Assembly: GCA_028753945.1 (NCBI GenBank)
Contig: JAPNXP010000003.1
Location: 2,604,001-2,668,000 of the forward strand
Length of the DNA: 64,000 nt
Source of the DNA: Hexactinellida sp. DTS-2022
Lineage: Eukaryota; Porifera; Hexactinellida
Reading direction: 5' to 3'
Below, piece after piece: positions 6,882-63,034 of the stretch (positions within the stretch are counted from its first letter, which is position 1; the number at the start of each line of letters is the position of its first letter). The position numbers and the translations under genes were made by a program. Under the pieces are notes generated by a model, which was given only the letters and a program-made list of their open reading frames with translations, was not told the DNA's origin and ran no database searches.

Positions 6882-7390
6882 CTAGCTCCTTAGCCAGTAC
6901 ATACCAGAACGTATTCGGTTATAATCGGTCAAAGCTTCAATAGGACCAACACCCGCTATAGCAGGACAGCGATCGAATATATATTTAGTCGCAACTCTTC
7001 TAATAACATCTTCATCAATCTGATCAATCCTATGATTCCATTCGGCTAATGGTACTCTACGGCCGTATACAGTTAGCTGTCGTCCTATATCTTCAAATAT
7101 GGGTGTGGAGCCATTCAGTGACATAAATAGGGATGTTTTGAAAATGTTTTTAGAACGTTCTACCTGTGCAGCTGTTACTAATGTACAAATACGCATCAAT
7201 TCTCTTTGTATGTTCCAGACAACATTATCTATCACCATTTTGTTACATACAAAGTATATGCCAAATAGACCGGTCTCAGCATAGCAGGTATTGAATGTGT
7301 TGAATGACCAGACCCAGTCTGTCTCTGAACACATTTGTGCTAGCTTCGATGAGAGATTGTTACCACCACCTACTGATCGATCCCAGCTTC
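6882..7390 (-). CDS. PMPCB: PMPCB exon 3 (C-terminal half)
   Basis: The acceptor is CCCCTTTAG|GAAGC. The exon opens [19 protein letters not shown] and ends MYWLRS with a TAG stop at 6882-6884. Its length keeps the frame set by exon 2. Confidence 0.95.
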
Positions 7391-13078: not shown

Positions 13079-13194
13079 TTCTAAGAGAGCTAAGAAATTA
13101 GTAAATACCTACAAGAAAGCACTTTTCTCCGCCCAAAATACTGCTCTTTCATACCGGTAACCGTACAGGGGTTTTAGTTGGAGCAAACCTAGTA

Positions 13195-22871: not shown

Positions 22872-23099
22872 TCAATCAAATCCACCTGCTTTTAGCCTAT
22901 GAATTATCCAATTAGATGCTCTGAGAGCAAGAGCCACAGCTGTTAAAGTAGGATTGCACGCAGTCCCAGTAGGAATAACTCCACAACTTCCGATGAATAG
23001 ATTATTATGTCCGATTACACGCGAATAAGTATCAACAACGCAATCATCAGCTTCTGCGGTAGCATCAGTATTCTCAGGATTACCCATTCGTGTTGTACC
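22872..23099 (-). CDS. Pyranose oxidase-like exon 5 (catalytic Asn, C-terminus)
   Basis: The acceptor is TTTAATAG|GGTACA. The exon opens GTTRMGNPENTD, contains DTYSRVIGHNNLFIGSCG and CNPTLTAVALALRA, and ends KAGGFD with TGA at 22872-22874. Confidence 0.92.
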   Translation of the reverse strand, partial: GTTRMGNPENTDATAEADDCVVDTYSRVIGHNNLFIGSCGVIPTGTACNPTLTAVALALRASNWIIHRLKAGGFD

Positions 23100-26000
23100 C
23101 TATTAAACTCATTGATAATATTAAAGAATATATGTTGATGTGTCTACCTTTTTAAATAAAATAACAAAAACAGCATCTAATTGTTTTTGTCCCGCGATTC
23201 GTTCATCGAAATACTTCAGGATCATAGGCGTCGTGAACCACCCGGGCACCGAACATTTCCGGGCAGCCCAGAGGAGCTACCCGGACTTTACCCGGAATCC
23301 GGGTAACTCCGGATAATAGTACACTTGTATAGAGATGGGTCGATCGAACTACGTCTCTCAGGTAGTTGGCACGGCCCTAGATTTCATTCACCGGGCAGCC
23401 CGAAGGCCCAACCGTCGTATTTACGACGCCTATGCTCACGCTACTGATTAAATGAATTTTATGAAATATAGTGAGATATTGTATCACGGTGTAGAGAAAG
23501 GGCAATTTTGCCATATAATTTCAGAAATCAGGACCAAAAGCATCAACATCCTGCATTAGTGAATTTGTCTAACTTACTGTAATATGTAGTGCAGTTCCTG
23601 GTTTCATGATACTTGGCTCAGAACCAGGTAGGTATTTTCCAAGTTTTGTAGCAACCATACACATTTCTTCCATCATGAGTCTTTGTTCTTCTGAGTCACT
23701 TTTGCTAAGCTGAAAATGAAAAGTAGGCTGAGGCATACCAAATATATCTTTGTATTTGTCATCAAATGTTACACAATTCTCTTTCCTCGGAGTACTACGT
23801 CCGAACCATCGGAAATCCAAGATGAGTCTTTGATCCACATTGGGATCAATTGGACCAAATGTGAACAAATTTCGATGGATTTGACAATGAAATAAATGAT
23901 CTTCACACACAGGCCATAATAACTATAAAATTGTGATCAATAATTGCATTTATTTATGTACCTTTTCTCATCTTATAGTTTCAAGGAATTTTTAACCAAG
24001 GGTTAAATGAGAAGCATATAATCCAGTGATTTAAGCGGAGTCGACTTTATATTGTTTTAGATTATAGATTACTATACAATTGTCTAAAAATCAAACGAGT
24101 CTCGACGACCAGTGTTAATTCTTAGGAATTTTTCGGGGGAACCCCCGAAAAATTCACAATTTTTTCCGTAACCCCCCGAAAAAAATCGTGTTTATCAAGG
24201 TCCCCCGATAATTAGAGGGTATTAAGACCACTAATTTGGTAGATATACTTACTTTACTTCTTCTACTCAAAATCTATATTATTTTGTTCAAATTCAATAA
24301 TTTTCAAGTGCTCTTAGACTGCGATAGATAATTTAAGTGGGCTTGTACTAGCCCTAGTGCGAATGGAATCTAACTTTTAATGGTTTTTAAACTAATGAAC
24401 ATGAACACACTATTAGGGTTTATATTCTACAAAATAGCAACATTTAATTGATTGATTCTCAAACTTATTTACCCCAGCAGAACCTCTAACATTCAATTAC
24501 TTCACGAACAATAAACGCCTCAAATATACAGGTAAACCTCCGAAATGCGACACTTTTGGGAGCAGCGCTTGTGCAGGATATTCGTTGTCGTATTTCGGAG
24601 GTTGCCCCCACATGTATTATTTATATTGGAAAGTCAATCGGGAGAATGGCTTTGTGCCGTATCTCGGAGGTTGTCGTATTTCAGAAGTGCCGCTTTTAGA
24701 GGTTTACCAGTATACATAATACGTCAGATAAATAATCGTCACCCATTAGCATGAATTTAAATTCAATTCGCACTTGGACTAGTACTTGTACCAAAATTGC
24801 ACAAGACTGCAACATGAATATTTGCTATTCTTGTTTACAAAATCAGTAAACAAATTAATGAAATTCAAAAGGAACTTATAAGTTAGCTACCAACGGATAA
24901 AATATGAAATTCAATTTTGGCAATCATAAGTTTATAATATGAATATTTAATGATGTAGTTATAATTGGAAAATCAGACCCTTGTGTGGGGCTAATACCAG
25001 AAATCGAAGAGACACTCTAAAGTCTAAACAGTCCGGAAATTCGTTTTGAAATGTTTGGCGCCGGGATTTTGGCTAAATCCCCTCATGAGTACTGTAACTG
25101 TCCTCCGAAAATTAGAGGGAACACGGTCGACGATTATTCGTTAAGTAACGCACAGACAAACCACCTCGCCCTATTACTCACTTTGTTACACGGCCCCATG
25201 CACTAAAGGTATTAAGTCATAGTAAATATAACTTATTAATTACCTGTGGAGTCGGATCATCTATTGGAATTGGTAGTGTGTCATCTGGGTTTTCTTCAAT
25301 ATGCTTGTTTACTTCAGGTGAATTTGATGATTTAATAAATTCAATTATACTAGTACTCAAATAAACTTGGCAAAATCCCATTGGTTGTTCACAGAGATAT
25401 TTTCCAAGAGCAGGAGGTCGTATATTCGATTCGTACAATAACTGAGGTGTTAATACTGCCCCAGCAGTGACGATAAATACTTTAGCTCTGTATAAGATAA
25501 CTTCACTAGTTTGGAGGTTCCTCACGGATGCAGATTCTATTTTCTTTAAGCCTTGTTCAGTATGTATTGAATTTAACTTCAGACAAATGTGCTGTGACTA
25601 AAATATTCTGTTTATTATATACAATTTCAATATACCTGAAAGTGTATCTTCGTAGGCGTGCAATATCATACTACATTTAAACAAGAAATAAAAAAACTAA
25701 ACTATGGATACTAGTTTTACGGAGCGTTCATATTTTAATATATTCTCTATTTAAAAAGCAATAAATATTCCCAATGGAATTTGTAAATTAATGATCAGCT
25801 TACATGTTTACCAATTCAGGGCCGGCGCCACCGGGGGTGTCCTGGAAGTCCGGACACCCACTGCCTCAAGGAAATGAAGCAATGCTTGGACAGTGACACC
25901 CACTAGACTATACAGTGACACCCACTACACCCACACCTCATAATACGTGGCGCCGGCAATGCAATTATACCTTTTGGGATCCACTTTCTAACTAATATGG

Positions 26001-29000
26001 TTGTTACCTTAAGACAAAATCTGGAACTATCATCTTGCAAAAGCTTAATAATGCTTTCACCAAGGATAATATCTGCTCCTGTCCATTTTACAGAAAATTT
26101 CTTTGATTCAGCTTTTTCCACCCCAAGCGGTATTGGACATATTTTCTCGTAAAAATATTCACCTTTTAAAGCTTCCAAAATAGCCTGCTGTCGTATTGAC
26201 CCATTAAACACATCACTGTGCGTGTTTAAAAGTAGTTCTCCCTCTGTATAAATAGAATCCCAATCCTCATCTCTTAAGAGAGTGCTTCGCTCAGGTCTAG
26301 GCCCCTTACTATTCTGTCTCGGAGTACAGCACGTCCAGTGCGTAAACATTCCACCGATAGCATATGTAGCCGATGCATTGGGAAGATTATAATTGGGATC
26401 TTGATTGGGATTAAATCCTTGTTGAATGTACCTAACATTAGATTAATAGAGATTGTGCACGTATTTATTGGATTTATCGTATTTTAAATAGAATATACGA
26501 CCTGCAATGGAAGAATCAATAATTTCATGTGTTTTTGTGTCATTAATCTGAACAGGCTTGTACCACTAACAAAAATAGTTAGTGGTACAAGAAAATAGGT
26601 ATACCACTCAAATTCTAATTTTACTTTTCATAATTTGAGATTGCATCAACTAGCATTTTATAATTTCCATATTAGCATTTATCGCTGTTTCCGCCCATCG
26701 AGATGGAGTGAGTATATACAACACACTACTCGTTTATCCTAGTAAGCCAATATTTTCAGTTCTATAAGGAGTGTATATGTAAGCTATTTTAAGACTACTA
26801 GTGCTCTAATTTAAGGCTTCTAAGTACAGATTTTTTTTGAAATTCTATATTTAAGCTCCCATATAGAATAATATAGTACTAAAAGCTTACTTTTGAAGAA
26901 TTGATAAAGATTACAAAAATGTGATTCGGTCTAATCCATTCTATCAGATGTCCTTGAGGTCCTCTGGGAAGGTGCTAATATCAAAAAGTCAAATTTTTCA
27001 TCGGAATTGGTCGATTCTAGGAAAAACGTACGGTTTTTCAACATTTGAGCCACATTTTTGCTCCCAAAGGTGTCTAGAATTTAATTAAGTACGAAATCGG
27101 ACAATCGGAACTCAAACAGGTCTTAGTTTACATATTATGGTGCTATATTCCAAATCTCAGCGATATAACTTCAAAAAGTTCCCCAAAACTAAGCTTTGAA
27201 AATAGTGGCATGCTATAATTAGTTACGGTGGTTTTCAAGTGGCAGAGAGGATTTGCGACACGTCTACAGCGAAGAATATTGATTCGGGAAGGAATTAAAA
27301 TCGGCCATCTTGCTGGAATTCAATCACTGATAGTGCCTGAAAGTTAGAACTAAGCTCCAGTTAGCTTTTGAATTTGGATTTTCTCAATTTTGATGATTAC
27401 ATGACACTCCTTATATGGGCATTCGAGATTATTAGCAAGGTAACCATTTGGTTTTGAGTGATTTTTGACTTTGCAATGATTTAGAAATGATATATCAATG
27501 TGATTAGTAATTTAGAGCTAAGCTCTAGAGTCTCCCGTTTAGGAGATACTAATTTGCATGTGTCATCAAAATTGGTCACATTCACACTACCATATAGGGC
27601 AATATCGAAAACGGTGCGTCCTAGGCTCACAAAATGTATTATTCACATATGGGAAACCATGTGTTCTGATCATTTTTCACTTGTCTTACTTGAATCTATC
27701 TCTTTTCCTCTCTGAGTTACAAATTAGTTAAGAATCCGTACCCTGAAGACCGCCGAAAGGCTATAACTTTTGCAATTTCCACTTTTATCTAAAAATTTTT
27801 GTTGAGTTTTGCAAAAATTTTGTCAGACTATCATATGTCTGAATATTGAAACGTTGTAAATACAATAAATAGTTATTTTAACGTGGGCAACACCTCTGGA
27901 GTTATAAAACCGCGTTTTAATATTAAAAGCTACTCTACTAAAACAGTCATAACTCGGGAAATAATGTTCGGATCGATGAAAACCCAAGTCTCCTCGATAG
28001 ATATCATCCTTCCGCAGTGTCTGTAAAAATATCGTAAAAATTTGAACATTTCAAATTACAAAGCGAAAATGGACGGAAACAGCGTTATAGATATTTTGGG
28101 CCATAATGACATTTTCCAACTAGAATTTGAGATGTGAATCCTCATAAGTGCTGGATGTGTAATAGCAAGTATAAAGTGTGTCTCCATAGCAAAGACGGTA
28201 AGTAAACCGTCATGGATTGAAAGTATCCATGGTTAATAATGGTTTAATAGTAATAAAGGTAAGTAAACAATCGTGGTAAGTAAACCGTCATACAACAGTA
28301 CTATGATAACTTAGTATTTTTGGAATATTGCATGAACCACCACTAATTCGAACAGTTTTGCTTAATGGCAGAATTACTGACATGATTGAATTACTACTAC
28401 CTTGTATTACTATGACAATATCAGTTATGACATACTAGCAATAAAAAAATGGTTCTTTGCCCAGTCAGCCCGGTCCGGGAATTTAAGTTATATTATCAGA
28501 CTTTGGCTTGCCCGGGATCAAAACAATATGTTACTAAGTCTATCATTTACTTGAATTTCAAAATATGGTAAATCGTGACCTTCGTTATATAAGGCCTTAC
28601 TACTGAGTAGATTTTGCTGGACCATGGATTACTTAAAGGCCATTGATTATTAGCTGACATTTCTTTATCTCAATAGCTAGTATTGACAGACCTGAGTAAT
28701 GCATTATAATTATATAGGAAGTTAGGAACATGATATCAAGGGATGCATACATAACACCCTTTAGAATTGTGAATGAGTGTATTACCATATAAAGAATTAA
28801 GTGCAAATAATCTCATTATCTCAAAAAATATTGAAGTTAGGCCTAGAAAATGTATTATCAATGAATAGGAAGTTACCTAATGCGGATAGATCAGTACTAC
28901 CATAGTTTACATAATATCGATAGTTTTTGAGTTATGGCTCATTTTAGGAAATATACATTTCCCTGGCAACCGAGGAATGTGTAAACATTCCATTTATAAT

Positions 29001-32000
29001 TTCGATATATTTCATTCAACGAGTTATGGACATCCTCATGTTCAAATTTTGAACATTTATAACGCGTTTAACTATGTTAAAAGCAGGCTATAAAAATCCA
29101 AAATTGCAGCTGTGCCGACGTATTTCCCTTTGGTGGCACTATCTATTGGTGGCTACCGGTTGGGTAATTGATAGTGCCTCCAAGGAAAATACTGTCGGCA
29201 CAGCTGGAATTTTGGATTTTTTTCCGCCATGCCATCATCACTATGAAGGTGTTAAACCATTTCAGAAAGTGAAATAATGAAAAAGATTACAATTATATAA
29301 TTTATATTTTAATTTATACTTCGCTAGAATTAATTTGTACTTTAATAGAATTAGCTAAACTGAAATGATGCAGGTGGAGTCATGCAAGTAATGACTAAAA
29401 CTCAATATGTGCAGTGAATTAAAGACTTCTTACTCTCGACCAATTAAATTACAGCCTCGGTTACGCATTCTATATGCACACTAACAATTGATAGAAATCC
29501 TTTTATACTAGTTGGATGCTAGCTGCTAATCCATACTGGGACAACCCTCGAATTTAATTGGCTAAGCCATAATTGAATTAAATAGGTGTTAAAATTATTT
29601 GATCATAAATCGTAACCCCAGGAGCAAATTAGAAGGGCACTCCGCACCTACATGCCAAGTTTCAGCCCTCAATGTATAAAGGTGTGGCCAGGGCACCGTC
29701 TACGGAGAAAAAAAAATCCAAAATTGCAGCCTGTGCCGACGCATGTTCCTTTGGTGGCACTATATTTTGTTGGTGGTTTATTGATAGTGCCTCCGAAGGA
29801 ACATGCTGTCGGCGCAGGCTGCAATTTTGGATTTTTTTTCGCCAAGTCATCAACGCCCAAGGTGTGAAGAACTATTTGTTAAGATTTAACAAGTGAAATC
29901 AATATAATTATTACAAGTTGAAACAATGGAATTAGATTCAACAGTATTACTGAAATTGAAGTGTGAGAAACAAAGGAAATTTGAAACTCAATTGTGGCAC
30001 AATCTAAGCCCAATTTGAAAATTCGTGGACTGTGAAAAGGTGTAGAATTTAATTCTCTATCCAAATATGTAAATTTTATGAAGCTCACTATTTATTATTT
30101 AATGTTATGAAGTGTAATTAGATTAAATAGGTGTTAAGAAAATTTGAACGGAAATCGTAACCCCAGGTGCAAATTAGACGATCACTTCGAACCTACATGC
30201 CAAGTTTCAGCCCTTAAGGTATAAAGGTGAGGGCAGGGTACCGTCTACGGAGAAATAATAATAATAATAAAAATAATAATAAAAATCCAAAATTGCAGCC
30301 TGTGCCGACGCATGTTCCTTTGGTGGCACTATATTTTGTTGGTGGTTTATTGATAGTGCCTCCAAAGGAACATGCTGTCGGCGCAGGCTGAAATTTTGGA
30401 TTTTTTTTCGCCAAGTCATCAACGCCCAAGGTGTGAAGAACCATTTGTTAAGTGGTCGGAGTCACAAGGAACGATTGTTGAATTTTAAGTTTGTTTCTAT
30501 CATAAACTATCTAGAGTTTAATGCCATTCATTTATTATGTATTGATAATAAATTATATTATTGGTTATATATTTTAGCAATGTTATCCACGGTGATTTGA
30601 GTTTAGTCAACAAATTCATCATATAAATTAATTTAATTTAATCCATTGCATAGTAATATACAATTAAATAGAAGCCAGCTGGAATTTATAAGTTAAATCA
30701 ATATATTTATCGCAAGTTGAAACAATAGAGTAAGATTTAACAAGTTTAATCAATAAAATTATTACAAGTTGAAACAATAGAATTAGAATCAATATAATTA
30801 TTACAAGTTGAAACAATGGAAATTGATTGATAAGTTTTACTGAATCTGAAGTGTGAGGAAACACAGGAGATTGGTACCCCAATTATGGCACAAACCTAGG
30901 CTAAATTGAATATTTGTGAATTGCCAAAAGGTGTAGAATTTAATTTTCTATCCGCACATGTAAATTTTATCAAGCTCAACATTAATTATTTCATGTTATG
31001 AGCAATAATTAGTTTAAATAGGTGTTAAAATTATTTGAGAAAAAATCGTAACCCCAGGTGCAAATTAGACGGTCACTCCGCAACTACATGCCAAGTTTCA
31101 GCCCTCTATGCATATAGGTGTGGCCAGGGCACCTGCTACGGAGAAATAATAATAAAAAATCCAAAATTGCAGCCTGTGCCGACGCATGTTCCTTTGGTGG
31201 CACTCTATTTTTGTGTTGTTTATTGATAGTGCCTCCAAAGGAACATGCTGTCGGCGCAGGCTGCAATTTTGGATTTTTTTTCGCCCAGTCATCAACGCCT
31301 CAAGGTGTCAAAAACCATTTGTTAATTGGTCCGAGTCACAAGGAATTGTAGATAAATTTGAAGTTTGTTTCTACCGTAAACCATCTTTGGTTTACTGCCA
31401 TTCATTCATTATATATTGATAATAAGTTATATTAATAGTTATTTATTTTAGCAATGTTATCCATGGTTGGTTGAGTTGAGTCACCAAATTCATTATATTA
31501 TATTATTATATTTAATCCATTGTATAGTAATACTACAATTAAATAGAAGCCAGCTGGAATTTATAAGTTAAATCAATTTAATTATTGCAAGTTGAAACAA
31601 TAGTGAAAGATTTAACAAGTTAAATCAATATAAATATTACAAGTTGAAACAATGGAATTAGATTTCACAGTTTTACAGTAATTGAAGTGTGAGTAAACAA
31701 AGAAATTTCAACCCCCATTAATGGCAGAAATTAAACCAATTCTAACAAATTTTCTTCTCGCATCAGACGCAGAATTTTAAGATGAATCTAAATATGAAAT
31801 ATAATTTTGGGGTTATTAAAACATATTTTGAGTTATGGACCAGACAAATTTTGAAAGGTGTTAAAGATGTGTCCAAAATTTGTTAATCAAAAATCGTAAC
31901 CCCAGGTGCAAATTAGACGGTCCCATCGCACCTACATGACAAGTTTCAGCCTATCAACTATAAAGCTCTGGCCAGGGCACCGTCTACTGAGAAAAAAAAA

Positions 32001-39768: not shown

Positions 39769-39801
<33 letters not shown>

Positions 39802-42800: not shown

Positions 42801-45800
42801 CTGCCATAAATGGGCGTTGAAATTTCTTTGTTTACTCACACTTCAATTTCAGTAAAACTGTGAAATCTAATTCCATTGTTTCAACTTGTAATAATTATAT
42901 TGATTTAACTTGTTAAATCCTACTCTATTGATTCAACTTGCGATAATTATATTGATTCAACTTATAAATTCCAGCTGGCTTCTATTTAATTGTAGCATTA
43001 CTATACAATGGATTAAATTAAATTAATTTATATAAGGAATTTGTTGACTTTACTCAACTAACCGTGGATAACATTGCTAAAATAAATAACTAATAATTTA
43101 ATTTATTATCATTAAGTAATGAATGAATGGCATTAAACTAAAGATGGTTTATGATAGAACCGTTAAGATTTTACATTCCACAACAACGACAGATTAAGTG
43201 ATTATATTTATTTCGGCGAGAATATTCTTTTTGCACAATTAATGTACTGACGTAATTTATTATAATTAATTCCTTTTGTATTTAACTTATAGAATTTTCC
43301 AATTGGATTATTGGGGTTATCGAGTGCGCTGAATTCAAATATGATAGTGAAATTCGATTTAAATTAATAATAAGTGCAAATAATTGAACTGTATTTATTT
43401 TGCTGTACATAATAATGGTGTTAAATTATTAATTTATTAATTAAATATTTATACTAATTAGGTAAATTTCATTAATCTCAGAGATGATACAAGATAGAAA
43501 CAAACTTTCAATTTATCAATTGGTCCTTATGCCAGGTACCACCTATACAAGTGGGTCTTGACACCTTGAGGTGATGATGACATCGTTAAAAAAATGTATT
43601 TTTACAATTTTGTGAATTAAATAATTCGCATGGGTTGGTTGGAGTTGGGTGAATACCCAACACGCACTTAAAAAATGCTGAGTCATCACAGATTATATTC
43701 TACTGAAACTTGAATATCTCTCAAATGAATTGAGCTAAATGGAAACTTCCACCACTCTAAGGGTCGTTGCCTACTGAAACACCTTTCTGAAATAATTTAA
43801 CACCTTCATAGTGATGATGACTAGGCGAAAAAAAATCCAAAATTGCAGCTAGTGCTGACAGCATGTTCCTTTGGAGGCACTATCAATAAACCACCACCAA
43901 AATATAGTGCCACCAAAGGAACATGCGTCGGCACAGCTGCAATTTTGGATTTTATTATTTGTTTATTGATAGTGCCTCCAATGGAACATGCTGTCGGCAC
44001 AGTCTGCAATTTTGGATTTTTTTTCGCCCAGTCATCAACGCCTCAAGGTGTCAAAAACCATTTGTTATTTGGTCCGAGTCACAAGGAATGGTAGATAAAT
44101 TTGAAGTTTGTTTCGATCATAAACCATCTTGAGTTTAATGCCATTGATTCATTATGTATTGATAATAGATTATATTATTAGTTATTTATTTTAGCAATGT
44201 TATCCACGGTGATTTGAGTTTAGTCAACAAATTCCTTATATTATTATATTTTATTTAATCCATTGTATAGTAATACTACAATTAAATAGAAGCCAACTGG
44301 AATCTATAAGTTGAATCAATTTAATTATCGCAAGTTGAAATAATAGTGAAAGATTTAACAAGTTAAATAAATATAATTATCGCAAGTTGAAACAATGGAA
44401 TTAGATTTAACACTTTCAATGGAACTTAAGTATTAGTAAACAAAGGAAACTTGCAACTCTATTGTGGCACTAACGAAACCCAATTTAAAAATTCGTGCAC
44501 TGTGAAAAGGTGTAGAATTTAATTCTCTATCCGTACATGTAAATTTTATCAAGCTCAATATTAATTATTTCATGTTATGAGCTATAATTAGTTTAAATAG
44601 GTGTTTAAATCATTTGATAAAAAATCGTAACCCCAGGTGCAAATTAGACGGTCACTCCGCAACTACATGCCAAGTTTCAGCCCTCAATGTATACAGGTGT
44701 GGCCAGGGCACCTGCTACGGAGAAATAAAAATAATAATAAAAATAAGGGCAGTGATTCCAATACTGGGCCACTATACTATAGTATAGTCGGCACAGTAAA
44801 AATAAAAATAATAAAGGCAGTGATTCTAATACTGGGCCACTATACTATAGTATAGTCGGCACAGTAATAATATATACAAAAATCCAAAATTGCAGCTGTG
44901 CCGACGCATGTTCCTTTGGTGGCACTATATTTTTGTGTTGTTTATTGATAGTGCCTCCAAAGGAACATGCTGTCGGCGCAGGCAGCAATTTTGGATTTTT
45001 TTTCGCCAAATCATCAACGTCCAAGGTGTGAAGAAGCATTTGTTATTTGTTCCGAGTCACAAGGAACGGTAGATAAATTTGAAGTTTGTTTCTATCATAA
45101 ACCATCTAGAGTTTAATGCCATTCATTCATTATGTTTTGATAATAAATTATATTATTAGTTATTTATTTTAGCAATGTTATCCACGGTTGGTTGAGTTGA
45201 GTCAACAAATTCATTATATTATATTATTATATTTAATCCATTGTATAGTAATACTACAATTAAATAGAAGTCAGCTGGAATTTATAAGTTAAATCAATTT
45301 AATTATTGCAAGTTGAAACAATAGTGAAAGATTTAACAAGTTAAATCAATATAAATATTACAAGTTGAAACAATGGAATTAGATTTCACAGTTTTACAGT
45401 AATTGAAGTGTGAGTAAACAAAGAAATTTCAACCCCTATTTATGGCAGAAATTAAACCCTTTATTGAAAGTTTTCTTCTCCCATCAGACGCAGAATTTTA
45501 TGGCGAATCCAAATGTGAAATAAAATTTGGGGGTTTAGTAAAACAATTTTTAAGTTATGGACCAGACAAAATTTGAAAGGTGTTAAAGATGTGTCAAAAA
45601 TTTGTTAATCAAAAATCGTAACCCCAGGTGCAAATTAGACGATCCCATCGCACCTACATGCCAAGTTTCAGCCCATCAACTATAAAGCTCTGGCCAGCGC
45701 ACCGTCTACAGAGAAAAAATAAAAAAAATAAAAATAATAAAGGCAGTGATTCCAATACTGGGCCACTATACTATAGTATAGTCGGCACAGTAATAAAGGC

Positions 45801-48800
45801 AGTGATTCCAATACTGGGCCACTATACTATAGTATAGTCGGCACAGTAATAAAGGCAGTGAGATTAGAACTGGGCCACTATACTATAGTATAGTCGGCAC
45901 AGTAAAAATAATAAAGGCAGTGATTCCAATACTGAGCCACTATACTATAGTATAGTCGGCACAGTAAAAATATATTTGCAACATGATACTAGTATAGGAA
46001 AACAAACATTGTCTATTTATCACACGTTATGAATCAGTACACACAACTGCAATTTCATAATATTTTGATTTTCGCGAATCGATTACTAGAAATATCCATT
46101 CATCTTATCAGTATAAAAGAATTCCCATAATTAACTTCGAAATCATTTCGCAATATATAGGACATTATGGAATTCAATTCTGAAGAGTATAAACGCTGTA
46201 TAGGAAATATTCTGACATCGACTGACGGACACAAGTATGTTCAGTCAAAAATTACTGAGAAATATATTTACTTAAAGTGCGCAATCTTTAGGAGTGGTTG
46301 TAAGGGAACTGGTAAATAAATCGTGCTAGAAATTTGATAATCCCTATGAAGGAACATAATCATGATGTTGATGCATACAAAGCTGATATTTATAAGCTCA
46401 AAACCAAATGCAAAACGGTTGCCAAGCAGGTGGAAACAACAGGTCTAAGGGAGGTATTCGATGACGTTACTAGGAACGATTTATGTGCACGTGAAATTTC
46501 TTTTGCGGAGTGCGAATCGTCGATGTATCGTGCTAGGAGAAAAACACATCCCAAAATACCATTGACGGGTAGTGAATTTGTAGATATGTTATCTACTACT
46601 AGCCTCGGCGCACATTTCAAATTTTCTGTTAGAAGCGGGGACCAGATTGGAGTGTTTTTTTCTCGGATGAGATGAGGAACACACTTTCAGAGGTTACCAA
46701 TATACAGTTCGATGGGACTTTTTATACGGTTCCAGTCCAATTCTCTCAATTATGGACGATATTCATAGCTGTTGGTATTCATACACTTCCTGCTGTCCAC
46801 TGTTTATTGTCGGGCAAGACGCAAGGATTATACAAAGCAGTTTTAGAAAATATTATTATTGATATCCCTCAATTTAAACCCGTAGCCTCCATGTCTGATT
46901 GGGAACCGGCCGTAGGAACGCTTTCAAAGAAGTATTTCCTCATATCAGCAATTAAGGATGATGGTTTCATTATAGACAACGTATTTGGGCGAAAAACCAA
47001 AAACTAGGTCTTAGTAATGCTTTCAAAAATAATCCTGAAATAACAAGATTTATTCGACAACTGATGGCCATACCCTTTTTGCCTGCATCTCTCTTATACC
47101 CAACATTCACATTAATCCCTACACCAACTCTATAAAATTCAGAAGCAGTACTTTCGACAAAGCTAAAGAATTATGTCAGAAAGCATTGGTTGATTCAAAC
47201 ACCCTCTGAGGAATTATCAATCTATGAGTTGAGTATTACTACAAATAATGGTGCCGAGAGCTATCATTCGAAACTGAAATCCAGAATAAGGACTAGTCAT
47301 CCAAGAATATGGACTTTCATGTCCTACATAAATGAAGTTATCTTGGATGTGGACAATGACATCGGAAGAATACGATCGGGAAGAGAAATTAGTCGGAGCC
47401 GGAAGATAACTAGTGTAAGAAATTAAGAACAAAGGGCGTTTCTTAAACATAAACTTAGTCTTAGAGAGGTTACACCATGGGAGTTCTTGCAAGCGATTAG
47501 TCATACGATTGACACCATTCCAATTCTACACATTCAAATTAGCGATTCGGAAGATTCTGGTGATGACACGGAGGAGCAAAATACCAATACTTCTGAGCGT
47601 TTATGTGTAGTATATGCCTCTCGCCTCGCACAACAACTTGGATCTTCATGCCCTGCAGGCATGCGAACTTTTGCAGCGATGAGGGCCGGATTAACCCATG
47701 GGCAACCGGGGCAACTGCCCCGGGGCCTCCACCACCAAAGTTGTACCTCATTTTTCACTTGACAACTGTAGTTGTTGGCAGAGTGGATCATGGGTCAACA
47801 TTGGTGACCCATGACCCATCGAGTGACCCATTGACCCATCAAGTAACGCATTTACCCAATGTGTTATCAATTGACCTTTTTAAATATCTATTTTTAATAT
47901 CCAAACATTATGTAACACAATATATGTATGATGCTTGTCAATTAATTAATTTTTCCCTGTAATGTTTCTGGGTAAATTTATTCGTACTATAACTGGAATT
48001 CCAAATGGGATCAAAATTCGAAATGGGTCATGGGTCATGGGTCAGAGATCCGTGACCCATGACCCATCAGGGTCAGCGGAAGCTAGTGAGAGGTGGGGCG
48101 ACCTTGTTTATGATGATAATTGTGAGGATTGCAGAGTCAAAAAATACGCCCGAGAAATTTCAGAGTATCAAAAAAATTACAGAAAAAGTGGTGCGGCCCA
48201 GGCCGCCCCTCTTCCGCCAGCCCTGCCCATGACCCATCGACCCATGGTCCACTCTGGTGGAAGGAGTTAGGGGCCTCCGCAACACTGGTTGCCCCAGGGC
48301 CTCCACCTCTGTTAATCCGGCCCTGGCAGCAATTGTAGTCTGCAAGTCATTGAACTCGAGCGAGGATGTCCAATTTGCCGATCCAACATAGACACACGTT
48401 TCGAAATATTAACAGATTAATTGATTGTACTTATATTAATAACTTACTATTATTATTTACTTCTCTTAGCAATATCATATTCATGCATTAAAACTACTAT
48501 TACTTGAATATAGTGAAATCTCGTTTAATCTAATCTAAGTTAGATAGTTAGATATATCGATATATATCGATATATCTAACTATCTAACTTAGATTAGATT
48601 AAACGTTTATATTATAGTATATACTATAATATAAAAGTTTGTTATTCTCATATCCTGGATAAATATATAGATATTCCAAATTACGATTCGGACAAATGAC
48701 AATATTCCAAAATACGATTCGGACAAATGACAATAATCCAAAAATACGATTCGGACAAATGACAATAATCCAAAAATACGATTCGGACAAATGACAATAA

Positions 48801-51800
48801 TCCAAAAATACGATTCGGACAAATGACAATAATCCAAGAATACGATTCGGACAAATGACAATAATCCAAAAATACGATTCGGACAAATGACAATATTCCA
48901 AAATACGATTCGGACAATGACAATATTCCAAGTTACGATTCGGACAAATGACAATAATCCAAAAATACGATTCGGACAAATGACAATATTCCAAAATACG
49001 ATTCGGACAAATGACAATATTCCAAATAACGATTCGGACAAATGACAATATTGCAAATTACGATTCGGACAAATGACAATATTCCAAATAACGATTCGGA
49101 CAAACGCCAGTTAGCGATTTTCGGACAAATGAAAACTTACAAATTCGGACAAATGCAGCTCCCCCATAAAGATATATCAGCTAATAATCAATGGCCTTTA
49201 AGTAATCCATGGTTCGGAGTAGTAGTAAGGCCTTATATAACGAAGGTCACGGGTAAATACATTTTATAGATAATTAGGAATTGAAAACGGATCGATGCAA
49301 ATCGCATTGGTTCCCAAATATTCTGCAATTTGATTTCTAGTTTTAGTACAAGCTCCAGTGCTGAGGTACCAACGTTTAAAGTTAGAGGGGGCTTTTTAAA
49401 TATTATTATGTAAAGTAAATCACTGACTTCCATTGATATATTTCTATTTAATGTGTATTTTCTTATTGAACAGAGAGAAAGTGTTCGAGCGAGGGAAAAT
49501 TTTTAAGAATCTATAAATGTGGTGAACATTCCAAAAATACTCACGTTTTATTGGATTATTGAAACTACATGGTGTTCCAACCACAAATATCTATTAATAT
49601 AGACAGTGGTTCCCAACCAGGGTGACGTTCGGTTCCTCTAGGGTACCACAGACTTACGATTATACGTACTTGTTTACTGATCTTGTGACTTTTGATATCT
49701 AGTAAATGATCTAAAGTTCCCAATAATTAATTAACTGTAGGATGCATTCAATTAGTATTATATTATTATAGTATTATAGTTCTGTCACTGGAAAATTGGT
49801 CCGGGGGACCAATATTCCATGGAAAACTGGTCCTAGTCCAATTTCCATGGAATAATGGTCCCGGATCAATTTTTCGGGGCCCAATTTTCAAGTGATAGGC
49901 TTATTCATAAAAGATTTGGTCCCAATATGGCGAAAAATCGCCTAGGCTACTTCTAGTAAATACGGTAACTAAATTAACACAAACCTCAGAGGGACCAATT
50001 TTCCACAGACGGACCAAATTTCCAGGAAAATCTTGCTCCCCCTGGACAATTTTCAAGGGGACCAAAATTTCCGTGACAGTAATTTTAATTATAATACTAG
50101 CGTTAACCGGTCGGCCTCAATCTCAGATTTGGGATGCCGCTGAAACGAATACGTTGTAAAAGGGTGACGCCCGCACAAAAAGGTTGGGAACCACTGATAT
50201 AGACCATATATAACCTTTCTAAAAACTTGAGTTTATTGAAAAGTTGAGTAGATTTGAATTTCTTGACAAAAACTTGAGCAGATTTTGGAATTATTTTGTA
50301 AAATTTGAGTCGATTCGGAAAGATCTAGATTTGTATTTGAGTGTCAGTAAATAGTTGAGCAGATTTGGAATTTCCCATAAATGTGTCTACGAAAATAAGT
50401 CATATCCAGGAAATTGGCATGCGTACAAGTTGAATAATAAATCTTGAAAAATAGTGAGTAGGAATTTCTTATGAGTTTCTTTGGGGCAGGGAACATTATG
50501 GTTCTTCGCCTTATTGTTGTTACGTAACAATTGGCTACTGTTGTTAAAATTCAAAGTAATAAATTGCTTTTCCTTCTGTACTAAGCAACCTACACTCATT
50601 AACGAAGTCTTCACACTTTTCACAATGGATTTTAAGGAGGGAGTTGCTTGAATCCGATTAAATTTAAAAAAACTTTAAAGTGAACTGGTGAACACTCAAT
50701 TATTGTAAGCACCGCATTTAGCACGTAATTGGATGGCCATTTTAATCCGCCACGATCAAAAAGGCCAATCAAGGCAAGAGTTAAAATCTGGGTCTTCAAT
50801 TCTCATAGTCCATAGAGTCATAGCAGTGGTGTAGCTAGGGTTTCGGGCCCCGGTTCAAAAGTATGTGCCGGGACCCCTGGCCCCACTAGTTCAAATTGGA
50901 GTAGAAATTTTAAGGAGTGATGCATCTGGATATATTTGGGTTTGAAATGGCATTTCCTGCATTTGTCATGACTCTTAGACAAAATGTATATCTATACGTA
51001 CTATTAAAACACAAGGCTGGGTATGTGTGTATATATATTTGTTTGCATGTTCCGAGTTGAATGAAGAAACTGGACGCTTTCCAAATGTGATTTTTGGCAT
51101 ATAGGGGTAACTTTTGGCATCCGCCAACAAGTTGAGGTTTCCACTGAAAATTTCTCACACCTCGACAAGTTATGACGTCATTGTCACATTTCGAGAAGCG
51201 TGAAAATTCACTTTATCGCACATAATTCCCGCCCTCTAAGAGATAAAAATCTGAAAATTTAATAGAACATGTACATTAATGATGCGGACACGTTGGTCAC
51301 ACCAGATTGCCAATATGTATACTCATTATCGCATGATGACGTAATCACAAAAATTTCACAATGTTAATTTGACTATTTTATGCCTATTTACGCTTCATAA
51401 TCAATGTTAAAAGTATATAAACCACACACACCTCAGTGAAGTGGCCTTTATATAGTACTAGTAGGCTATGCTTCAAGTATAGTAAACAAAGGAATTAGCA
51501 CCCAAATTATGGCGGAACAAAGCCCTAATTGAAAATTCGCGAATAACTATGTATTGGGTTCATAAATATATTGTGAATCCAATGAATAATGTGAGTCTTA
51601 GTATAATAGTTTTTGACTTATGATGCAAATAAATTTCTGAAGGTGTTAATTAACATGTGTCGAAAATGTGTCTTTATCGTAAACATCCTCTTATAATTAT
51701 TTATTGTGCATTTATTGTGGTTGTCAAAGTCCCAAACTTTTCGATCTTTCGATCAGCTCCGGATCCCCCTTTTTTGAGGATCGATCCATGGCCTACTATA

Positions 51801-54462
51801 TTATACGGCTAGATAAGTCAAGTATTTGCCATTTTATTTCCAGGCCAGTGTTTACTTTCTAATTGCTCGAAAAATAAATTACATATTGTCATGGAATAAA
51901 TTAAACTTAGGTTTTCAAACACGCTGGAAACATCTAAAATACTTTTGAGAATGATTTCTCATCGGATTTAACCACAATGATGTAATCAAATATACATACC
52001 CATATATGGTAATTAATACTAATTATGAAGTAGAGATTGAAGTAGAGATTTTGTGAACATTAGCCAAATAAGTCCCAAGAACGGTCATTAAACTGACTGG
52101 GCAACATCTACGTCGTCAAACAGCACTTATAAGACTTAGATTAAAATCTAATTATACATTTCAAAAAAATACAAAACATATGGTTTGATAACAATAGCAT
52201 AATTATTTACTTACATTGACGTTGAAAAGAATTTGAGTGAAAGGAATGACATAATTTGTTACTGTAGTTAGTTTTTTTACAAGAAAAATGCATTAGGATA
52301 AAAACGGCAAAGTTAGATTCTCAAATTATTTAAAAATTAACATTTATTTAACATCATTACCATATATGGGTATGTATATTTGATTACGTCACTGTGGTTA
52401 AATCCGATGAGAAATCATTCTCAAAAGTATTTTAGATGTTTCCAGCGTATTTGAAAACCTAAGTTTAGTTTATTCCAAGACAAGAGGTGATTTATTTTAC
52501 GAGCAATTAGAAAGTAAACACTGGCCTGGAAATTTAATGGCAAATACTTGACTTATCTAGCCATATTATATAGTAGGCCATGATCGATCTGATCAAAGTT
52601 TCTCTAGCAAAACATCCCGAACAGATTAACACAGACCAATCTTTGTATAATATCAAAATTAATTTCCAATTAATCAATAATAGGCATTCAATTAAATTTG
52701 TGATTTACAATAATACATTTTGACAATTATTCGAACTAAGACAAGCGATTTTGGCTCGATAAACTTGATATATACAGTCAATATCTGCCTGATTTAATTA
52801 TCAAAGGATCGTAAAAGGATCGTAATCGGATCATAGAGAAACTTTTTTCAGGATCGTCTAATGCCCTAATTAATTAATTAATTAATAGTTAGTTTCAAAT
52901 TAACTTGCGAAAATTCTGCATCTGGGTTGATTGATAATTAACTACACGAGCCCTTCGGTCTCGGTCGCTTCGCGACTTTTGTTCGTTCGTGTTAGACACT
53001 ACGCAATACAATTAACGGCCGCTTCGCGGCCTTTCCCTCCCCAAAGCAATAATATTAATAATGAGCTAACCTGTGGCTTGTAAATTACACACTTTGACTT
53101 AATAACCCGTGCCTAAATTCATTTTGGGTTGTGATTAGTTACTGTGATTTGTTTGGGAAATCATGTTATTTAAGTTATTCTCATTGCTCAATAGTTATTA
53201 ATTATTATTTAATTTATAGCTCAATAATTCTTAAGGGTAGCTCGTTCAGCTATATTAAAACGTTTGCTTGTTTAGTCAAATAAATTGAAACCTGTGGTTG
53301 GTAAATTATACGCAATTAATTATTTCAGCAAATTGTATTCAAAGTAATTAATAACTCTGGGTGTAATCTCTCCATAATAATGGTTTAAAGATGAGATTAA
53401 GACCGCTTCGCGGTCTTATTCTCACCATTAAACCATTATTATGGAGAGGTAAATGCAGGGTTGCAAAATATTTGATTTATAAATAGTAATAAAGTTCTAC
53501 ATCTCAATAAACAATTCTTTTTGCAGGAGCTTGGGTTAGTGAATTATTTAATTTAATTGATAGCAATAATTAACATAATAAATCTCATCGTTAGGCAGAA
53601 CCAAAACCTAGATTACTTAAGTTAATTCATTTCTAGTAGAAATCCTAGGTAGAAATTACGTAATTCCATTGATAGTCTTATTATAGAAGCCAATATAGGT
53701 GTAATAAATAAACAATGCATTAGAGAAATTAACTACTCTAAGCGATTCTTGTTAACCAAACAAATCAGATCACCCACATAGTGTTAAAAATAATAGGACA
53801 CATTTTAACTAATAACTTTCGCTATGTAAGTTCGTAAAATTGATAATTTTCACAAAGGTGTTCCATTATGTGTTGTCGATTTTCATATAAAATTTATACT
53901 AACGGAGTCAAATTTGCAAAAGCTATTAAGGAAAAGGTTACCGTGTCATGTCATGCTCACAATATTTCGCTTAGAAAACCAACAGACCCATGTCGCTATG
54001 ACAAACTACTCCAATATACCAAATCTCAGCTTTCTAGGTAGTATGGTCTTTTCAATTAATTACGGACAAACATCCCCACACACCACACACACACACACAC
54101 ACACAACAATTCCGCTTTTAATATATAGATTAACACAATTTAGATTTTTAGACTCAATAATGTTACCCTGGATATGTTTTAATATCAAAATTAAATCCAT
54201 TTGGATCTAAAGTAAAATCATCAGCATCACTTGAAGCAACTGAAAGAAGTTGTTGATGAGCTTGTACAATCCCTGTGAATCTATTGACATCATTCTTGAA
54301 TAACGCTGAGTTTTTGAGATTCTCACCTGGTCTTTCTGTTAACTTAGTACCTATATCAATAATCAGCACAGAGAAAGGAGTCTCTTCGAGGATTTTCTTC
54401 GCAAATGTAAACCCCAATGGACCTGAACCTATTATTAGAACATCCACATGTTCAACATTCAT
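22872..54462 (-). CDS. Pyranose 2-oxidase-like GMC flavoenzyme, five exons, complete reading frame
   Basis: Exons 54462-54167, 26431-26008, 25597-25244, 23922-23578 and 23099-22872 join in phase (2, 0, 0, 0) into 548 residues. All junctions use GT/AG. Family reaction (known): oxidation of aldopyranoses at C2 with FAD, reducing O2 or quinones. Visible: GSGPLG dinucleotide motif (12-17); THWT at 129-132, whose His130 aligns with the residue that covalently binds FAD in fungal enzymes; a QIHRNLFTFG substrate loop at 372-381; His471 (ALHIT) and Asn522 (CNPTLTA), aligning with the catalytic His/Asn pair. Similarity to fungal P2Ox runs end to end; fungal enzymes are about 620 residues and the gap is mostly at the ends. 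No signal peptide, membrane segment or C-terminal SKL is seen, so a cytosolic protein is inferred. The activity is not proven: the loop has Asn where the Trametes enzyme has Asp, and GTTRMG where fungi have GTHRMG. Confidence 0.9.
23223..23434. mobile_element. hAT-like MITE in oxidase intron 4
   Basis: CATAGGCGTCGT at the left mirrors ACGACGCCTATG at the right, with a CCGGGC-rich core. The ends resemble 10414-10555, but no matching target duplication is visible. Confidence 0.6.
23578..23922 (-). CDS. Pyranose oxidase-like exon 4 (substrate loop, catalytic His)
   Basis: The acceptor is TTATAG|TTATTATGG and the donor is ATTACA|GTAAGT. 115 codons. Contains QIHRNLFTFGPID, LDFRWFGRSTP, MPQPTFHF and PGTALHIT. 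Confidence 0.92.
24127..24154. repeat. Perfect hairpin, 13 bp arms
   Basis: AATTTTTCGGGGG, loop AA, then the exact complement. Diverged partial copies follow (CCCCCCGAAAAAAAT and CCCCCGATAA). In oxidase intron 3; function unknown. Confidence 0.6.
24529..24710. mobile_element. TA-flanked MITE, 182 bp
   Basis: CAGGTAAACCTCCGAAATGC at the left pairs imperfectly with the complement of GAGGTTTACCAG at the right. TA lies on both sides. Contains internal GTATTTCGGAGGTTG repeats. In oxidase intron 3. Confidence 0.8.
25244..25597 (-). CDS. Pyranose oxidase-like exon 3
   Basis: The acceptor is TTTTAG|TCACAG (an in-frame alternative lies 6 bases on). The donor is CCACAG|GTAATT. 118 codons. Contains AKVFIVTAGAVLTPQLL and LPIPIDDPTPQ, both with clear fungal P2Ox counterparts. 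Confidence 0.92.
25817..25961. mobile_element. hAT-like MITE between oxidase exons 2 and 3
   Basis: CAGGGCCGGCGCCAC at the left mirrors GTGGCGCCGGCAATG at the right. The core repeats GTGACACCCACTA. A target duplication is not clear. It lies only 47 bp from the exon 2 donor. Confidence 0.6.
26008..26431 (-). CDS. Pyranose oxidase-like exon 2 (flavinylation motif)
   Basis: The acceptor is ATGTTAG|GTAC and the donor is CTTAAG|GTAACA. The exon opens YIQQGFNPNQDPNYN and contains GGMFTHWTCCTPR, the best-conserved P2Ox segment. One base plus 141 codons. Confidence 0.92.
26432..29094. other. First part of the 27.7 kb intron, no coding signal
   Basis: Contains a perfect 14 bp-arm hairpin at 26557-26591 (CTTGTACCACTAAC and complement). 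A possible old element lies between CGCTGTTTCCGCCCAT (about 26682) and its weak complement ATGGACGGAAACAGCG (about 28069). A repeat block at 28128-28295 with GACGGTAAGTAAACCGTC is the same family that hosts the MULE at 4865. Confidence 0.4.
33709..33764 (+). repeat. 62 bp palindrome-centred repeat, one copy
   Basis: GGCAGTAAGATTAGAACTGG, then CCACTATACTATAGTATAGT and CGGCACAGT. It sits in the A-rich linker between the unit head and hairpin. Confidence 0.8.
35205..35322 (+). repeat. 62 bp palindrome-centred repeat, two copies
   Basis: Two copies of the GGCAGTGATTCCAATACTGG type, separated by AAT-rich linkers, in the same slot beside the hairpin. Confidence 0.85.
36178..36366 (+). repeat. 62 bp palindrome-centred repeat, three copies
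   Basis: Three GGCAGTGATTC-type copies with A/T-rich spacers. The last abuts the hairpin stem directly. Confidence 0.85.
39522..40041 (+). repeat. 62 bp palindrome-centred repeat, eight copies
   Basis: Copies start near 39524, 39594, 39652, 39715, 39800, 39856, 39921 and 39986. Two sequence types alternate irregularly (AGTGATTCCAATACTGG and AGTAAGATTAGAACTGG). All share the 16 bp palindrome CTATACTATAGTATAG and the end GTCGGCACAGT. Spacers are AAT/AAAAT runs. Confidence 0.9.
40085..40272 (-). repeat. 31-33 bp minisatellite, six copies
   Basis: On the minus strand the unit reads ATTCGGACAAATGACAATAT plus TCCAAAATACG. It follows the eight-copy array and precedes the next hairpin. The same unit in the opposite orientation forms the array at 48684-49160. 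Confidence 0.88.
41179..43952 (-). repeat. Minus-orientation block of hairpin units inside the plus array
   Basis: Starts with two minus-strand 62 bp repeats (41179-41295) and contains complete minus hairpins at about 42386-42507 and 43827-43952. It ends exactly at a hairpin's outer edge. To its left is the first half (41126-41178) and to its right the second half (43953-44018) of one plus-strand hairpin. Confidence 0.8.
43953..45967 (+). repeat. Hairpin array resumes, plus orientation
   Basis: A right half-hairpin, a full unit with a hairpin at about 44880-44998, and the head of a further unit whose hairpin is missing. 62 bp repeats lie at 44747-44871 (two copies) and 45738-45967 (four copies). 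It ends where the second MULE region begins. Confidence 0.8.
46167..48420 (+). pseudogene. MULE transposase with FLYWCH-like N-terminus and C-terminal RING finger, broken
   Basis: The ATG at 46167 opens a FLYWCH/WRKY-GCM-like finger: YLKCAIFRSGCKG, then after a frameshift near 46315 NLIIPMKEHNHD. The MULE core follows: IQFDGTFYTVPVQFSQLWTI (first catalytic Asp), then SDWEPA (probable second acid), then TTNNGAESYHSKLKSRIR. An acidic linker (ISDSEDSGDDTEEQ) leads to a C3HC4 RING finger: CSICL, WIFMPCRHANFCS, then after the hAT insertion VIELERGCPICRSNID and a TAA at 48418-48420. At least three frameshifts are present besides the insertion. RING fingers usually mark ubiquitin ligases; its role in a transposase is unknown to me. 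Confidence 0.8.
47681..48325. mobile_element. hAT-type element inserted in the RING finger, 645 bp
   Basis: GAGGGCCGGATTAAC at the left mirrors GTTAATCCGGCCCTG at the right. The 8 bp duplication is GCAGCGAT (47673-47680) and GCAGCAAT (48326-48333), with one mismatch. The interior has clustered GACCCAT/ATGGGTC heptamers in both orientations (about 47785-47850 and 48025-48250). Confidence 0.88.
48522..48605. repeat. 84 bp perfect palindrome
   Basis: Arms start CGTTTAATCTAATCTAAGTT and meet in a GATATATCGATATATATCG-type centre. I found no mismatch and no spacer. Confidence 0.92.
48606..48635. repeat. 30 bp perfect palindrome adjoining the 84 bp one
   Basis: TTTATATTATAGTAT followed by its exact complement. 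It contains the TATAGTATA core also present in the 62 bp repeats. Confidence 0.85.
48684..49160 (+). repeat. 31-33 bp minisatellite, about 14 copies plus two diverged
   Basis: Unit CGATTCGGACAAATGACAAT plus ATTCCAAAATA or AATCCAAAAATA. The right end decays into shorter TTCGGACAAATG units. Open frames on the minus strand here are repeat read-through. Confidence 0.92.
49161..49604. other. AT-rich intron sequence, nothing recognised
   Basis: No coding signal or repeat boundary was recognised. It ends with the ATATAGAC target duplication of the next element. Confidence 0.4.
49605..50196. mobile_element. hAT-type element with a nested MITE
   Basis: AGTGGTTCCCAACC at the left mirrors GGTTGGGAACCACTG at the right. 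An exact 8 bp duplication ATATAGAC lies at 49597-49604 and 50197-50204. Ends are like those of 21108-21680. Confidence 0.88.
49782..50079. mobile_element. Nested MITE rich in GGTCC/GGACC
   Basis: CTGTCACTGGAAAATTGGTC at the left pairs with GACCAAAATTTCCGTGACAG at the right. The interior repeats AATTTTCC and GGTCC in both orientations. The target duplication is unclear. Confidence 0.7.
50197..51000. other. Intron sequence without recognised gene
   Basis: Contains short GAGTAGATTTG-type direct repeats near 50230-50370 and a solitary hAT-like end CAGTGGTGTAGCTAGGG near 50825 with no visible partner. Confidence 0.4.
51001..51470 (-). repeat. Family B repeat, inverted copy
   Basis: Minus-strand copy of the 4080-4506 repeat: CTATTAAAACACAAGGC on the plus strand at its end, with the CCGCCAACAAGTTGAGGTTT block at about 51120. 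It extends to the ACCACACACACC remnant near 51420. Confidence 0.75.
51471..51786. other. Intron sequence, hairpin-unit fragment
   Basis: Starts with AGTAAACAAAGGAATTAGCAC and a CGAATA-type block that resembles the tail of the array units. The GGATCGATC target of the next element lies at its end. Confidence 0.35.
51787..52582. mobile_element. Long-inverted-repeat (foldback) element, 796 bp, copy 1
   Basis: Ends CATGGCCTACTATA and TATAGTAGGCCATG open inverted arms of about 225 bp that run to CCATATATGG near 52010 and 52355. A 7 bp duplication ATCGATC lies at 51780-51786 and 52583-52589. The core is non-coding. An inverted, nearly identical copy lies at 60541-61336. The CA start and 7 bp target fit P-type elements; that class call is an inference. 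Confidence 0.9.
52583..52945. other. AT-rich intron sequence
   Basis: GATCAAAGTTTCTCTA near 52590 pairs with ATAGAGAAACTTTTTT near 52830, so the foldback element may have landed in an older inverted-repeat element. No gene was recognised. Confidence 0.4.
52946..54128 (-). repeat. Palindrome-tailed repeat family A, inverted copy 8
   Basis: The minus-strand tail with CGCTTCGCG hairpins is at 52946-53040. The head (GTGT-rich, then ATTGAAAAGACCATAC) is at 54128-54045. The middle holds a long hairpin at about 53370-53455 (CTCTCCATAATAATGGTTTA arms around GACCGCTTCGCGGTC). It ends about 40 bp past the exon 1 donor. Confidence 0.7.
54167..54462 (-). CDS. Pyranose oxidase-like exon 1 (FAD-binding start)
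   Basis: Starts MNVEHVDVLIIGSGPLGFTF with A at -3 before the ATG. It has 98 codons plus two bases and the donor CCAGG|GTAACA. It ends KTYP plus part of a Gly codon that exon 2 completes. An upstream non-coding exon cannot be excluded (TATAG lies 9 bases before the ATG). Confidence 0.88.
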
Positions 54463-57500: not shown

Positions 57501-57607
57501 GTATGTTCCATTGGAGGCACTATTAATAAACCAACACCAAAATATAGTGCCACCAAAGGAACATGCGTCGGCACAGGCTGCAATTTTGGATTTTTATTTT
57601 ATTTTTT

Positions 57608-61336: not shown

Positions 61337-61347
61337 CCTGGCCACAC

Positions 61348-62772: not shown

Positions 62773-63034
62773 TATAAGGAATTTGTTGACTCAACTCAAA
62801 TCACCGTGGATAACATTGCTAAATTAATTAAACATTATATTATAATTTATTATCAATACATATGGCAATAAACTCAAGATGGTTTATGATAGAAACAATC
62901 TTCAAATTTATCTACCGTTCCTTGTGACTCGGACCAATTAACAAATGGTTCTTGACGCCTTGAGGCGTTGATGACTTGGCGGAAAAAAATCCCAAATTCC
63001 AGCCTGTGCCAACAGCATGTTCCTTTGGAGGCAC

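Follow-up and report, generated by a model that had tools for sequence, protein, structure and literature searches.

Gene structure of the locus

The window (the whole stretch of 64,000 nucleotides that was analysed) contains on its minus strand a pyranose 2-oxidase (P2Ox)-like gene with five exons, called POx-like below, a gene for mitochondrial processing peptidase beta (MPP-beta) and an ORF with a THAP domain. The features are listed here with the best single-exon match for each POx-like exon (L and a number mark individual relatives).

54167..54462, minus strand: P2Ox-like exon 1, residues 1-98, with the ATG and an FAD-binding N-terminus of the Rossmann type, GSGPLG (blastp 89.7 bits to L013)
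26432..54166, minus strand: intron 1 of the P2Ox-like gene, 27,735 bases, 69% in repeats recurring within the window, with transposase-like ORFs inside
26008..26431, minus strand: P2Ox-like exon 2, with the GGMFTHWT flavinylation motif (H130, T132), residues 99-240 (119 bits to L003)
25244..25597, minus strand: P2Ox-like exon 3, residues 241-358, in which alternative in-phase acceptors would place the 5' end at 25591 or 25576 (102 bits to L009)
23578..23922, minus strand: P2Ox-like exon 4, residues 359-473, with the substrate-recognition loop QIHRNLFTFG (Q372, N376, F378, F380), R390, R396 and the catalytic H471 (140 bits to L013)
22872..23099, minus strand: P2Ox-like exon 5, residues 474-548, with the catalytic N522, the C-terminus and TGA (67 bits to L023)
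12209..13108, minus strand: MPP-beta 5' coding exon ORF, 278 codons and then a GT donor (Pfam M16 and PDB matches)
6882..7418, minus strand: MPP-beta 3' coding exon ORF (Pfam M16_C)
3163-3810, minus strand: THAP-domain ORF (Pfam)

Once the five minus-strand exons were joined, the POx-like gene had 548 codons followed by TGA and zero internal stops, and its four introns were all of the GT-AG type (4/4), with junctions after 98 2/3, 240, 358, and 473 codons (phases 2, 0, 0, and 0). The three in-phase acceptors of exon 3 give proteins of 541, 546 or 548 aa, and we judged the 548-aa form to be the preferable one, because the extra residues seemed to align with relatives. Each exon by itself matched bacterial POx relatives, with 90, 119, 102, 140, and 67 bits for exons 1 to 5 and E values of 2.7e-20, 4.7e-30, 1.4e-24, 1.7e-38, and 1.3e-12 (database size 2e9). 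In the shuffle control (100 shuffles per exon) the best score was 29.3 bits, and for exons 1 and 4 the shuffled sequences matched nothing up to E 1000. The homology of exon 1 stopped where that of exon 2 started, despite 27.7 kb between them, as expected if the exons form one gene. A tblastn search of the window found no second POx-like copy, and its matches were all at chance level (E 0.69 or worse).

Repeated sequence in the window

Half of the window is sequence repeated within the window, and the repeat content was 69% in intron 1 and 0% in the POx-like exons. At the left edge (1-2400, plus strand) there is a retroelement remnant with a reverse transcriptase (PF00078) and a tyrosine recombinase (PF00589), which we take to be DIRS-like. 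A run of transposase-like ORFs at 46316-47426 (plus strand, inside intron 1) had no Pfam match and is presumably MULE-like. One repeat family occupies about 31000-46000 and 57000-63700; its longest pairs are 1.5-2 kb long, in both orientations and 86-95% identical, and it contains tandem units of 56-71 bases with a palindrome-like core, ACTATACTATAGTATAGT. A minisatellite with a unit of 31-32 bases occurs at 40080-40269 and 48671-49104, about 8 kb apart in opposite orientations, and both arrays are in intron 1. Scans of the window for tRNA genes and Rfam families gave 0 matches, and in 10 further window ORFs Pfam found RVT_1 at the left edge plus a single match below cut-off.

Host of the gene

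The MPP-beta gene (6882-13108, minus strand) lies approximately 10 kb (9.8 kb) downstream of the POx-like gene on the same strand. It is spliced and intron-poor at its 5' end, since the first 278 codons are in one exon. Compared with Protein Data Bank chains, this first exon scored up to 302 bits against cytochrome bc1 core 1 chains, presumably mammalian, and against two MPP-beta chains it scored 282 bits (7jrg, which we take to be from a plant) and 264 bits (1hr6, which we take to be from yeast). THAP domains are mainly metazoan. Judged from the linked MPP-beta gene and the THAP domain, the POx-like gene is resident in a eukaryotic genome, very probably that of an animal. A host that is a non-animal eukaryote, for example a unicellular holozoan, in which a POx would be less surprising, is improbable: the host identity is drawn from one gene and transposon-like sequence, but the MPP-beta exon is closer to the cytochrome bc1 core 1 chains than to 7jrg or 1hr6, and the THAP domain at 3163-3810 also speaks against such a host.

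The GC3 of the POx-like gene was 0.26 versus 0.37 for MPP-beta, and the codon-usage correlation between the two was r 0.78. Six bacterial relatives were measured in the same way. Four of them, with high GC, had GC3 of 0.83-0.90 and r of -0.28 to -0.34 with the POx-like gene, and the two cyanobacterial ones had GC3 of 0.38 and r of 0.68 (L027) and GC3 of 0.34 and r of 0.81 (L033). These two low-GC cyanobacteria match about as well, so that codon usage by itself would still allow some bacteria as the source and is support rather than proof.

Contamination is very unlikely as the source of the POx-like gene, and we rejected it on the introns, the linked MPP-beta gene, the repeat-filled intron 1 and the host-like codon usage. 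A contaminant or a chimeric contig of fungal or bacterial DNA would fit the position of the protein beside fungal POx in the trees described below, but it would have to accommodate five exons, a 27.7-kb intron filled with repeats, linkage at 9.8 kb to an MPP-beta gene of the same strand, a window that contains no N, and one repeat family present in both intron 1 and the right-hand flank, so we give it almost no chance. The first-pass annotation had described an intact, spliced, pyranose-2-oxidase-like nuclear gene, and this core claim stands. Its five minus-strand exons joining in phase into 548 residues were borne out by the GT-AG sites, the open frame and the per-exon matches, and its argument that spliced exons in a repeat-rich locus speak against contamination was upheld by the introns, the MPP-beta linkage, the repeat-filled intron and the codon usage.

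Family assignment

The POx-like protein matched the pyranose oxidase model TIGR02462 with 503.1 bits (E 1.1e-150) over positions 1-547 of 548, which is below the equivalog cut-off of 544.9. We ran eight controls in all against this model. Two of them come from species with a characterised bacterial enzyme, and on matched stretches Oscillatoria L027 (494.4) was also below the cut-off and Kitasatospora L009 (562.8) passed; among the others, 601, 617, and 900 passed, 511 and 449 failed, and a C-glycoside-type row scored 142. Since the Oscillatoria enzyme fails and the Kitasatospora enzyme passes, the cut-off does not divide enzymes from non-enzymes.

Membership of the GMC superfamily was indicated by GSGPLG, by PF05199 at 56.4 bits (cut-off 24.6) and by H471/N522, which aligned with the catalytic pair of the Oscillatoria princeps enzyme OPOx. 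The GMC C-terminal domain (PF05199) is what the protein has in common with choline dehydrogenase and other common GMC enzymes. The competing GMC models gave 40.1 bits (MftG) and at most 29.8 bits (choline dehydrogenase, cholesterol oxidase), and an ordinary GMC dehydrogenase was rejected, because the choline dehydrogenase models, whose cut-offs are 605 and 732, stayed at or below 29.8 bits. A check set beforehand on the assignment was whether the protein would be placed among ordinary GMC groups, and it did not fall there, with 503 bits for TIGR02462 against at most 40.1 for the others.

Among Protein Data Bank chains 9fl2 scored highest, with 373.9 bits, and fungal chains reached up to 327.5. 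The identity to the POx-like protein was 42% for 9fl2, which is bacterial, and 39% for a fungal pyranose oxidase; the larger alignment gave 41% and 37.5%. L027 of O. princeps agrees with 9fl2 at all of the 525 residues printed for the latter, so we took 9fl2 to be the OPOx of PMC11650716. OPOx resembles the window protein end to end (41-42% identity), with the flavinylation His, the Thr, the His/Asn pair and a short head segment; it differs in that its loop has Asp373, Phe375, and Tyr377 and that Glu69 lies close to the flavin His, where the window protein has N376, F378, F380, and H69. Actinobacterial POx had the highest identity among complete rows, from 44.6% (L009, Kitasatospora aureofaciens) to 46.6% (L001), but these are bacterial genes with single uninterrupted frames, a GC3 of 0.83-0.86 (three measured) and an intact loop Asp and Tyr. 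Basidiomycete P2Ox (2f6c, 1tt0, 4mif), which is eukaryotic and sister to the window protein in the tree, was 37.5% identical (2f6c), or 47% over 232 columns (C-terminal half of 4mif); its chains are about 600 residues long and its loop reads HRDAFSYG, whereas that of the window protein reads HRNLFTFG.

The actinobacterial C-glycoside 3-oxidase-type (CGOx) GMC enzymes share the superfamily, the His and Asn pair and a common sequence space with the window protein, but in the rows listed they were 25.5-28% identical to it, and they have no head-like segment and another substrate loop. A segment at residues 325-345 of the window protein had letters in 90-100% of 36 POx rows and was a gap in 13/13 C-glycoside-type rows, a label assigned from tree position, and from the alignment we read this segment as the putative POx head. 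A C-glycoside 3-oxidase was rejected on this identity, on the presence of the head segment and on the separate position in the 55-row tree. Taken from the sequence comparisons, the gene appears to encode a GMC flavoenzyme of the POx type (CAZy AA3_4), whose substrate loop is unusual and whose host is of a new kind.

Active site and substrate loop

The motifs GSGPLG, THWT, and QIHR-NL-F-T-F-G and the residues H471 and N522 were found in the POx-like protein. The first-pass annotation had named GSGPLG, THWT, a QIHR-x-x-F-x-F-G loop and a catalytic His/Asn pair, all of which are in the 548-aa protein, and the end-to-end pyranose oxidase match that it had proposed agrees with TIGR02462 over positions 1-547. 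The N376 and F380 substitutions within the QIHR loop had gone unremarked there.

The POx-type comparison set had 37 rows (35 bacterial and 2 fungal). Q372, R390, R396, H471, and N522 were identical in 37/37 rows, the H, W, and T of the flavinylation motif T129-H130-W131-T132 were found in all of the 36 rows with letters there, and F378 was Phe in 30/37. H130 corresponds to the His to which FAD is covalently bound in relatives, and T132 lies two residues further on. At N376 and F380, all 37 rows had Asp and Tyr instead. The search pattern by which the relatives were collected allowed Asn or Asp at the first of these places, so the conservation of Asp was not forced by the pattern. In Trametes numbering, which was counted along the printed loop, the positions are Asp452, Phe454, and Tyr456, and the window protein (N376, F378, F380) keeps one of the three. 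Passages of PMC3897772 state that in the Trametes enzyme Asp452 contacts the sugar O4 and Tyr456 contacts O6 in the productive C2 mode, and they name both, together with Arg472, as critical for choosing the C2 over the C3 mode. Because the loop Asp and Tyr are replaced, we classed the POx-like protein as a variant and not as a standard glucose 2-oxidase; the defining reaction of pyranose 2-oxidase, EC 1.1.3.10, is to oxidise glucose at C2 using O2.

A very different loop was seen in L058 (1501-2976), a relative from the Chloroflexota draw that branches just outside the 37 POx-type rows, was not counted as POx-type and is 35% identical to the window protein. Its loop reads QIHRLSRQF, with Leu and Phe for Asp/Tyr, its His/Asn pair is kept, and the R396 position is Thr. 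It is possibly a further loop variant among POx relatives, and loops without the Asp and Tyr thus exist among relatives.

The protein may have the same fold and flavin chemistry and yet, through the loop changes, act in practice no longer as a pyranose 2-oxidase but as a C3-oxidase, as a dehydrogenase with another acceptor, or as an oxidase acting on another sugar or glycoside. The residues replaced by N376 and F380 are invariant in 37/37 POx-type rows, the same residues with Arg472 set the C2 versus C3 binding mode in Trametes (passages of PMC3897772), POx and C-glycoside 3-oxidases occupy one sequence space (passages of PMC10807413), and L058, the nearest row outside the 37, has Leu and Phe at the loop sites. 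But the POx head-like segment is present, the score is far from that of C-glycoside oxidases, Asn would still be able to hydrogen-bond O4, and R396 and Q372 are kept, so that we regard such a function as unlikely.

Eleven of the 83 positions that are at least 95% conserved among POx rows differed in the POx-like protein, including W369F and G511S, and relaxed constraint could also be behind these changes. Such changes, together with a first intron that is very long and filled with repeats, would suit a gene that is silent, or that has recently begun to decay while its reading frame is still open. But the 548 codons contain no stop or frameshift, the splice sites are canonical, and the full catalytic set is retained at about 45% identity. 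An intact frame after long divergence indicates selection for most of that time, and a silent or decaying gene is highly improbable.

Proposed enzyme and cellular role

We consider it probable, on the features above, that the locus is a gene resident in the nucleus of a eukaryote, which is most likely an animal, and encodes a POx-type flavoenzyme that would oxidise sugar with release of H2O2. Since the catalytic residues of the relatives are all in place, the chemistry can be carried over from them: a pyranose sugar would bind beneath the mobile loop, H471 would take the hydroxyl proton while the hydride goes to the histidyl-FAD, and O2 would reoxidise the flavin, by which H2O2 would be released. 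As the usual loop Asp and Tyr are Asn and Phe here, N376/F380 would be expected to alter the binding of sugar O4 and O6, and this may give a substrate preference or a C2/C3 regioselectivity unlike that of glucose 2-oxidases. By inspection the enzyme would act inside the cell, because the FAD-binding motif starts at residue 12, too early for a signal peptide to precede it, and the C-terminus, GGFD, is not a peroxisomal tail of the SKL type. Its likely use would be the controlled production of H2O2 or of a keto-sugar. We propose, tentatively and with somewhat less than even confidence, that an animal lineage has its own intracellular sugar oxidase, shared with fungi by descent or captured long ago, whose loop was re-tuned (Asp to Asn, Tyr to Phe) to another sugar or another carbon, and which would serve as a dedicated source of H2O2 or keto-sugar.

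The titles and passages checked in open-licence PubMed Central contained no study of an animal pyranose oxidase. Term counts gave zero occurrences of "metazoa" and "animal" in PMC6581175, PMC6509819, and PMC10807413. In PMC6204003 (beetle transcriptome), PMC9632902, PMC10307781 (Manduca GMC oxidoreductase), and PMC12724367 (isopod gut), the pyranose oxidase term appeared in the reference list only, and a passage of PMC7036934 names pyranose oxidase among lignin-degrading accessory enzymes. If the proposal is true, no working pyranose oxidase would have been described from an animal before this one, as far as the text searches of open-licence PubMed Central show, and an animal cell could make H2O2 directly from free sugar. 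N376/F380 would also provide natural substitutions at two of the positions credited with fixing C2 regioselectivity.

Origin of the gene

In the 55-row tree the window protein paired with the one fungal row (support 94/94), and in the 38-row tree it paired with two fungal rows (97/95), adjoining actinobacterial POx; in both trees long branches meet, a kind of join of which the program warns, and no ascomycete or other animal sequences were included. When the fungal rows were left out, the window protein was in none of the starred sets that contain half of the rows or fewer. The AU tests gave p 0.036 for the window protein with the 31 bacteria and the fungi outside, p 0.020 for the window protein with the 17 actinobacterial-type rows, and p 0.048 for the fungi with those 17. 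Kinship of the window protein with fungal POx is favoured but not shown, and the AU tests are borderline.

Passages of PMC6581175, PMC6509819, and PMC10807413 explain fungal POx by transfer from bacteria, and those of the latter two attribute its patchy presence in fungi to bacterial transfer with massive loss or to repeated transfer. For the window gene, one ancient acquisition shared with fungi, followed by loss in most animals, may be the origin, and the single branch formed with the fungal sequences (94/94 and 97/95) points this way. But long branches meet in both trees, and the AU test rejected neither the window protein outside the fungi and the 31 bacteria (p 0.097) nor the window protein with the cyanobacteria (p 0.070), so we put the chance of an ancient shared acquisition at a little under one half. 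An independent transfer from bacteria may also account for the gene, and so may a transfer from a fungus. Work on pyranose oxidases deals with enzymes of fungi and bacteria. An animal member with introns would extend the puzzle of their patchy distribution to animals and would allow a test of ancient inheritance against repeated transfer.

Relatives in bacteria, viruses, and plasmids

The pattern scan, with one genome per species from 84,980 bacterial and archaeal species, found 56 related loci, and the best was 45% identical in its best segment. Most were from Actinomycetota; the rest were from Cyanobacteriota (2), Chloroflexota (1), Planctomycetota (1), Bacteroidota (3), and Alphaproteobacteria (4, three of which were short, weak matches). 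In draws around known carriers, matches with E 1e-60 or better were found in 2/301, 1/292, 2/39, 1/385, 1/246, and 4/396 genomes, and at least the carrier at the centre of the draw is contained in every one of these counts, which meant that carriers were rare and scattered. Some carriers were possibly missed, since scoring in the larger draws was limited to 3-6 candidates per genome. A viral carrier was rejected, because none of the 21 pattern matches in the IMG/VR scan was a relative. The plasmid search gave 155 records with a match, the best place being 37.9% identical.

L005, from a Dehalococcoidia MAG (Chloroflexota), has a POx that grouped with those of Rubrobacteraceae (L002/L008, support 100/100), and this placement is likely due either to a binning error or to transfer. 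In the relative from Streptomyces huasconensis, L036 (4001-5661), the matched frame is broken by a stop, and this copy is possibly decaying or frameshifted.
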